From: a virus
Length of the DNA: 64,000 nt
IMG/VR virus record: IMGVR_UViG_3300034121_000940
Span: 57,673-121,672 of that record
Reading direction: 5' to 3' (one strand)
Both the position numbers and the translations under genes were made by a program. The first letter of the stretch is position 1. Every line of letters begins with the position of its first letter. Below the pieces are notes generated by a model that ran no database searches, was not told where the DNA came from, and worked only from the letters and a program-made list of their open reading frames with translations. Shown one piece after another: positions 22,089-23,120 of the stretch.

Positions 22089-22415
22089 ATTCCTGTGCGA
22101 TCCATTAGTGGGTGGCTGACCTTAAAGCAGGCGACTGGTTCTATGTGTTGTTCCCTTGAGAAAGGAGATGAGTAAATGTGGATAGTTGAGTTGCCACCAA
22201 CACAGAGGTTCTCAACCTCAAACTGAATGGTAGCCAATTATGAATCGCTATTAAGCAATACTTGCAACTTAACAAGGTTTAATGGAAAGATTGGTGATTT
22301 AAGTATTTTGACATATGTCATAACCTAGTTACTGAGGGTTTTATGAGGTTTTGTAGCTATACATACCTAGAGAAGTAACAAATAGCAAAACAGATTGACC
22401 CAAAGGCATGGGTGT

Positions 22416-22493
22416 AGTGTTAATAAGTGCTGACCTCTCAAATGGAGAGTTAAGTATGAGGGCGATGTATCACTTATTAATAATGACTCTACA
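22416..22493 (+). other. long RNA stem with nested hairpin
   Basis: TTAATAAGTG (22420-22429) pairs over 10 bp with CACTTATTAA (22471-22480), with GTAG/CTAC further out. A nested CTCTC-AAATG-GAGAG hairpin lies inside. About 78 nt in all; it could be a discrete RNA domain. Confidence 0.45.
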
Positions 22494-22522
22494 ATATGAA
22501 CAGGTAGCTTCCTGTTATTTAT

Positions 22523-22682
22523 GATGAGATGGTGGAATTGGTTAGACACTATCATTTTTTGTGGAAAATAAATGTGAGTATAAGGCGTGGTTAGCTGCCA
22601 AAAGCAATACTGAGAGAGGAACTCTTGAAGCAAAAAATGATAATCCAGACGTGGAATGCAGGTTCAATTCCTGTTCTCATCA
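22523..22682 (+). tRNA. tRNA-Leu-like gene interrupted by ~75-nt insert
   Basis: Acceptor GATGAGA/TCTCATC, a D-arm of tRNA-Leu type (GTGGAATTGGTTAGACAC), a long variable arm TCCA-GACG-TGGA and T-arm GCAGG-TTCAATT-CCTGT give a class II tRNA. The anticodon stem TATCA/TGATA encloses about 82 nt instead of 7. Removing ~75 nt so that TTT joins AAAA gives loop TTTAAAA and anticodon UAA (Leu), the same point (after U34) where group I introns sit in some bacterial tRNA-Leu genes. The insert is far too short for a group I intron and lacks its core. Other junctions within the T/A runs would give different anticodons. Confidence 0.65.
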
Positions 22683-23062
22683 CTAAATCCTGACACCGCT
22701 GTTTACTACAGCTTGAGGTTGACAGCCAGGAAAGACTGGTAATTGGGCGACTACTGAAGTGGATCAGGTGGTGATGGTTCGAGTCCATATGTTGTCCACA
22801 ACTTCGCTGGTTAATGGGAGAGGTTGGTATCTTACCGTCTCGCGTTAATGGATTACAGTCTTGAAAGAGTTAAACCTATTTTATAGGCCGTTTTTATTCT
22901 GTAAATACTGACACCAACCTCTGCAAGTTTGAAACAAAACTGTACTGCTTAGAAAGATGGAACCGTATAGGCTTGACCTATGAAGATACACGGAAAAATT
23001 GGAGAAAAAGTGTGTATGATGTCCGACAAGTTTGCCACAGGGTATGTTTTAGCAGGACAATT

Positions 23063-23120
23063 AACCGGTGATTAGATGAATATTTACTTGACATTCATAA
23101 ACATCTATCACCGGTTTTTT
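23063..23120 (+). terminator. strong terminator of the RNA block
   Basis: AACCGGTGAT-T-AGATG (23063-23078) pairs with CATCT-ATCACCGGTT (23102-23115), a 15-bp stem with one bulge, then TTTTTT. It isolates the RNA block from the next operon. Confidence 0.9.

Follow-up and report, generated by a model that had tools for sequence, protein, structure and literature searches.

The non-coding block at 22,066-23,122 of the window (the whole 64,000-nucleotide stretch analysed here, itself part of a 121,672-base IMG/VR virus record) is an array of unrelated structured RNA modules, not one family. Comparison with the sequences of related phages, all of them uncultured, shows the modules themselves, their conserved ends, compensatory changes within them, one exchange of a payload and, among close relatives, turnover of the island. 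We see an even chance that the block is an RNA cassette island, in which conserved scaffolds present exchangeable RNA payloads and the products would be stable RNAs processed by the host, with the payloads acting in trans. The scaffolds and families recognised are M1, M3, a tRNA-like chassis and M6. Below, positions are those of the window, features lie on the plus strand unless stated otherwise and L-numbers denote the related loci or contigs that were fetched. The DnaB of this phage is 31% identical to that of crAss-like phages, and database searches with its giant ORFs gave nothing clear.

The block is flanked upstream by a small ORF (21,942-22,088) and downstream by a glucosaminidase-like gene (PF01832) that begins at 23,132 and is followed, from 23,650, by a radical SAM gene resembling spore photoproduct lyase (SPL; PF20903). 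An earlier note on this DNA had described a block with no convincing gene, higher in GC than its flanks and closed by a 15-bp terminator hairpin, and all three points hold. The block contains no coding frame beyond chance, the longest stop-to-stop frame having 98 codons against a mean of 86 in shuffled sequence. Its GC content (39.3%) exceeds that of every 1,032-nt stretch sampled from the window, the flanks being at 32% and 30%. The intrinsic terminator (23,063-23,120) pairs 10 + 5 bp around one bulged T, with TTTTTT behind the hairpin, and in its homologues in L016, L018 and L004 three pairs show compensatory double changes. The near-perfect stems that the note found to be frequent are borne out singly, as real and conserved elements, despite the folding energy of the whole block being about that of shuffled sequence (z -0.20), a measure that is uninformative here. 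Its proposal of a loose core shared by three places did not survive: dinucleotide shuffles reach or exceed the scores of local alignments between the places in fractions of 0.08, 0.57 and 0.37, which is no better than chance, and the three places belong to different elements, namely E1, the payload of the tRNA-like gene and M6. What stands of the suggested family of related RNAs is a terminator-bounded set of structured RNAs, made up of different modules with no single core family; covariation in homologous regions supports their being structured.

The junction between the flanking genes holds different content in different relatives. Through the radical SAM protein we fetched 80 related loci. 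In L002 and L006 this protein is 96-98% identical to that of the window, yet the junction blocks are wholly different; at the same identity, the junction in L003 and L005 is reduced to a short conserved 3′ element, and in L004 (97% identical) it consists of E1 and the terminator only. Since the content differs or is missing despite a neighbouring protein of 96-98% identity, the island is a turnover hot spot next to genes that are stable. The remnant, seen at L003, L005, L010-L014, L017 and L018, reads ACGGGAGTGAATAAGTAGCTC..CCTTG-CGGATTACAA-CAGGG..terminator and is kept when the remainder is missing; its stem covaries (CTCTG/CAGAG, CCTTG/CAAGG). In another phage, L211, an array of M1 and tRNA-like genes lies, by eye, directly 5′ of the same SPL-like radical SAM gene, and because of this shared arrangement the island and the gene may form a conserved neighbourhood. 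At approximately 4980-5280 of L021 the CxxxCxxC motif of the SPL-like gene is split by a frame whose sequence resembles, by eye, the N-terminus of an intein (CVTPETLITTPHGVKIAGEIQEGDQVISF). ORFs like HNH-type or other homing endonucleases occur within RNA arrays in L083 (6660-7070), L084 (5690-6290) and L259 (1990-2600, minus strand), where by eye they adjoin split RNA modules. Such ORFs could mobilise the modules.

M1 (22,144-22,219) is a family assembled from scans of IMG/VR, in which a 7-bp stem, P1 (22,144-22,150/22,198-22,204), encloses hairpin a (22,151-22,166) and a variable arm, the payload (22,167-22,197), with hairpin b (22,205-22,219) directly 3′ of the second strand of P1. The window copy has 7 nt of loop-loop complementarity, the loop of hairpin b (TTCTCAA, 22,209-22,215) being the perfect complement of that of hairpin a (TTGAGAA, 22,156-22,162). 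We found at least 66 distinct copies in at least 60 contigs, scan counts for the scaffolds being lower bounds throughout, and 65 of the 66 have 5-7 nt of loop-loop complementarity, even though the register of stem and loop in hairpin b differs. Loops were judged copy by copy, as MAFFT alignment of M1 scaffolds misplaces those of hairpin b. A descriptor search gave one match in the block and three in 10 shuffled blocks; the case for M1 therefore rests on conservation and not on the descriptor. No Rfam family covers M1, and a search of 50,697 records of isolated phages did not find it, where only the D-arms of tRNA-Leu matched. The scaffold often lies directly 5′ of a tRNA or tRNA-like gene. Its payloads are diverse (77 in 58 sequence clusters) and fold slightly more stably than shuffled sequence (mean z -0.56).

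M3 (22,391-22,516) is a second scaffold of the same plan, for which relatives hold 16 distinct payloads. P1 (22,391-22,397/22,492-22,498; CAGATTG/CAATCTG in M3 sequences, one mismatch in the window) is followed by hairpin a (22,398-22,413), a 77-nt payload (22,414-22,490) and hairpin b (22,499-22,516), the two hairpins of M3 being ACCC..GGGT and AACAGG..CCTGTT. Relatives carry it 5′ of tRNA-like genes, as a solitary element flanked by protein genes (L088, L093) and as tandem copies (L089). Pairing between the loops (AGGCA/TGCTT) is no more than suggested, since it does not vary among the copies that have it and the window has a weak form of it, in which only AAG/CTT can pair. In both M1 and M3 the kissing interaction shows little covariation because stems and loops hardly vary. 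A third set of scaffolds on this plan carries the loop pairs TCAAG/CTTGA in L020/L021 and TTCAG/CTGAG in L090/L253, a difference that on inspection looks like a compensatory change. The M3 payload of the window is 83% identical over 77 nt (E 6e-17) to a payload held by an M1 scaffold in L259, and in its outer stem (22,420-22,429/22,471-22,480) four pairs show compensatory double changes by eye. A targeted scan of IMG/VR for this payload recovered no third phage, and the exchange with L259 is the only cross-scaffold case found. We rejected the presence of M3 in hosts or prophages: a scan of genome contigs for a 16-nt hairpin gave 102 stretches, approximately the number expected by chance, none of them with P1 or hairpin b.

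Between M1 and M3 lies a stretch (22,220-22,390) with no significant match among the loci fetched, in which a long stem TTTTGTAGCTA..TAGCAAAA is possible. Immediately before M1, E1 (22,067-22,140) has the helices ACAGG/CCTGT, ATCC/GGGT and CCT/AGG; among seven sequences 100% of cells are paired and 5 of 12 pairs show compensatory double changes. It is also found just 5′ of M1 in L016, L083, L084, L253 and L318. M6 (22,687-22,739), a CCT..AGG hairpin and then a TGACA-stem-GAAAGA-stem hairpin, recurs in other phage loci in about 14 more copies, whose stems vary and stay complementary, and it has a homologue in L318. A T-arm-like fragment of a tRNA 3′ half follows at 22,760-22,799 (28-nt match to tRNA-Gln of Microbacterium phages, E 0.3). 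In M7 (22,800-22,929) the ends AACTTcGCtGGTT and AACCtctGCAAGTT surround a variable centre, and its homologues in L002 and L302 likewise keep the ends and vary in the centre. M8 (23,021-23,058) is a GTCC/GGAC stem around AAGTTTGCC.CAG.GGTAT, with a homologue in L002 whose stem is ACCAC/GTGGT. Other loci also carry M4 (e.g. L198, ~2100-2195), an unclassified RNA roughly 95 nt long that includes two pseudoknot helices. Ten M4 sequences are 99.2% paired, with double changes in 13 of 26 pairs. It occurs in L198, L217, L223, L232, L242, L269, L304, L305, L309, L035 and L237, often between M1 and a tRNA-like gene, and alone in L035/L036.

The sole above-threshold Rfam match in the block is to RF00005, 'tRNA' (22,523-22,682, 160 nt). 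The match (36.1 bits, above the gathering score) has a large insert of approximately 77 nt, in agreement with the tRNA-Leu insert that the earlier note mentioned. It is not an ordinary tRNA: a normal anticodon arm is lacking, and ARAGORN makes no call here. The acceptor, D and T arms form an intact cloverleaf body whose stems covary, and a payload of 105 nt (22,550-22,654) replaces the anticodon and variable arms. In place of a 5-bp anticodon stem and 7-nt loop, a 12-bp stem (22,550-22,561/22,631-22,642) closes about 70 nt. Homologues of this payload are found in L287 (acceptor GATGAGG) and L315/L316 (AGTCAGG), the window chassis having GATGAGA. In the alignment of four such sequences 96.5% of cells are paired and double changes affect 11 of 36 pairs, a result reached in 0 of 500 shuffles; the changes are spread over the acceptor, D, anticodon-position, payload and T stems. 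The one ordinary tRNA found in the window's record is a tRNA-Asn(GTT) at 13738-13812 on the minus strand (68 bits).

This tRNA-Leu-like form recurs. In 50 genes of the first loci fetched, the acceptor, D and T arms are intact but 66 nt or more separate the acceptor from the T arm; 38 of these genes have the acceptor AGTCAGG, in contrast to the mixed acceptors of 154 normal-length tRNA bodies. We then scanned blind for the exact 26-nt chassis head AGTCAGGTGGCGGAATTGGTAGACGC, the commonest 5′ half, with no condition on the sequence that follows. The head is present in at least 120 contigs. Among the matches listed, 93 have a recognisable T arm and acceptor 3′ half, and just one of these has a normal 7-nt anticodon loop. 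Four of the remaining 92 are overruns of ~290 nt into the neighbouring gene, and the others carry unrelated inserts of 26-119 nt. Because the window chassis has a different acceptor, the figure of 92/93 applies to a sister chassis. Clustering by sequence divided the 195 chassis payloads of all loci into 158 groups, of which 131 have a single member, and a k-mer comparison found no shared motif or standout k-mer. They fold slightly more stably than shuffled sequence (mean z -0.92). Payload families such as ATGAATAAAGGTTAATAGTAAGGATAACG.. recur in unrelated contigs (L235, L241 and L249; L334, L359, L364, L373 and others). A search of the payloads against 4 Mb of phage DNA for antisense pairing gave one weak match only, and thus they show no evident role as antisense RNAs against these phages. 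Contiguous chassis-like matches in T7-like cyanophages were discarded, being incomplete tRNA-Leu sequences immediately downstream of an integrase gene, an arrangement consistent with known att sites.

In the cassette-island reading, three kinds of scaffold, M1 with its kissing hairpins, whose loops may pair within one molecule or between molecules, M3 and the tRNA-Leu-like body lacking an anticodon arm, would each hold a different payload. A long transcript would end at the terminator, and host RNase P and the tRNA 3′ processing machinery would free the tRNA-like RNA from it. The tRNA fold and the kissing hairpins would then stabilise the products, yielding small stable RNAs. The least certain step is the last, in which payloads would act in trans, most likely by binding host factors that change fast, defence proteins for instance, or by serving as decoys for them. 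We propose that the extreme diversity and turnover of payloads arise because they bind such factors, which would fit both the fast turnover beside stable genes and the scarcity of antisense matches. More tentatively, these phages may share a recombining stock of payloads on a few constant scaffolds, used to bind and neutralise changing host defence factors. It has long been asked why the islands in which phages keep tRNAs also contain odd RNAs; should tRNA-like bodies serve as carriers of exchangeable RNAs, many viral 'pseudo-tRNAs' and blank intergenic stretches would constitute a hidden RNA repertoire.

Other explanations have to be weighed against this. The tRNA-like genes may be decoys or nuclease-proof stand-ins for anticodon nucleases, with the other modules serving as processing leaders and terminators. 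LeuRS does not read the anticodon, and 70 of 81 AGTCAGG chassis have A as the discriminator base, as expected if LeuRS still charged them; moreover, phage tRNAs with altered anticodon loops have already been proposed to evade anticodon nucleases (PMC10264068). However, with inserts as long as 119 nt there is no anticodon left to decode or cut, and M1 and M3, which are not tRNAs, hold unrelated payloads too, so that we regard this explanation as unlikely. Similarly unlikely is that M1 and M3 are cis-acting leaders which control transcription or processing of the tRNA or tRNA-like genes that follow, their variable arms being neutral. It is in keeping with such a role that 15 of the 66 M1 copies end 13-20 nt upstream of a recognisable tRNA body and that a U-run stands behind hairpin b of M3 in L088, L093 and L009, whereas the variable arms recur as cassettes, one of them having moved to another scaffold, and M1 or M3 has no tRNA behind it in L009, L088 and L314.

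Less probable still is a single giant ornate RNA of the GOLLD or ROOL kind that spans the whole block, holds a tRNA in its linker and assembles through kissing loops. The habitat is shared, GOLLD co-occurring with M1 in three phages (L245, L205 and L275), and GOLLD linkers can hold tRNAs while ROOL uses intermolecular kissing loops (PMC12286853). The modules, however, are found singly or in other orders, and the window genome matches neither model: GOLLD (RF02032) is absent from the window and the 121,672-base record by a search that was positive in two other records, and ROOL (RF03087) was found neither by the Rfam scans of the window nor by a further search, which by itself is weak since the control genomes were silent as well. 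We attach slightly less credence again to the inserts being introns of some unknown kind, whose removal would give normal tRNAs. They do sit at the site of tRNA introns, between the halves of the anticodon arm, but no Rfam intron model, group I or II, matches the window even at E 5, the payloads have no common catalytic core or motif and the 12-bp closing stem of the window leaves no 7-nt loop. RtcB-type ligase (PF01139) is found in 0 of 26 records, although a host could still supply it. Most improbable is a graveyard in which phage tRNA genes, disrupted by random insertions, have decayed. The tRNA 3′ fragment at 22,760-22,799 and the ordinary tRNAs nearby in other phages would suit it, yet compensatory changes preserve the acceptor, D and T stems of the chassis, one chassis sequence is present in at least 120 contigs and almost never intact, and the payloads recur and covary; this reading is disfavoured.

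As judged from Rfam 15 and open-access papers, the scaffold-payload RNAs appear to be new. We found no description of such RNAs in the open-access literature, and the passages found in a review of non-canonical tRNAs mention neither phages nor a form with the anticodon arm replaced. If the cassette-island reading holds, a shared stock of payloads on the tRNA-like body, M1 and M3 could conceivably be the RNA counterpart of variable-region or cassette systems. Several known RNAs resemble parts of it. GOLLD and ROOL are likewise structured RNAs of phage tRNA islands, in which a frame that is conserved is combined with a variable linker and with kissing loops (PMC12286853), but the modules of the window are about 40-160 nt long, can stand alone and swap order. 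One locus of 14,671 nt, L245, holds GOLLD, tmRNA, freshwater-1, ordinary tRNAs, expanded tRNA-like genes and two copies of M1. Freshwater-1 (RF02979) is thus a small RNA motif of the same kind of phage cluster; it differs in sequence and is missing from the window. Like tmRNA, the chassis is a tRNA-like body with other RNA in place of the anticodon arm; unlike it, the chassis keeps a full D-arm, and its inserts are too short and variable for a tag frame and pseudoknots. No match to tmRNA (RF00023) was obtained in the window by the kind of search that was positive in L245 and L205. HDV-like theta ribozymes are small structured RNAs directly beside phage tRNA genes (PMC10879173), whereas M1 and M3 lie 5′ of the tRNA and on inspection lack the HDV helix order. 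No Rfam ribozyme model matches the window, and a small self-cleaving ribozyme in the tRNA insert seems unlikely, there being no Rfam match and no recognisable motif. Bacterial tRNA-Leu (RF00005) shares with the chassis its acceptor, D and T arms and mostly A73, and the D-arm matches that of phage tRNA-Leu; the difference is that a structured payload of 26-119 nt replaces the anticodon and variable arms. Lastly, in engineered tRNA scaffolds and aptamer-tagged tRNAs a tRNA body carries and stabilises another RNA (PMC7590224). The phage system differs in being natural and in holding well over a hundred different payloads, and its scaffolds would serve as ready-made frames for RNA engineering.
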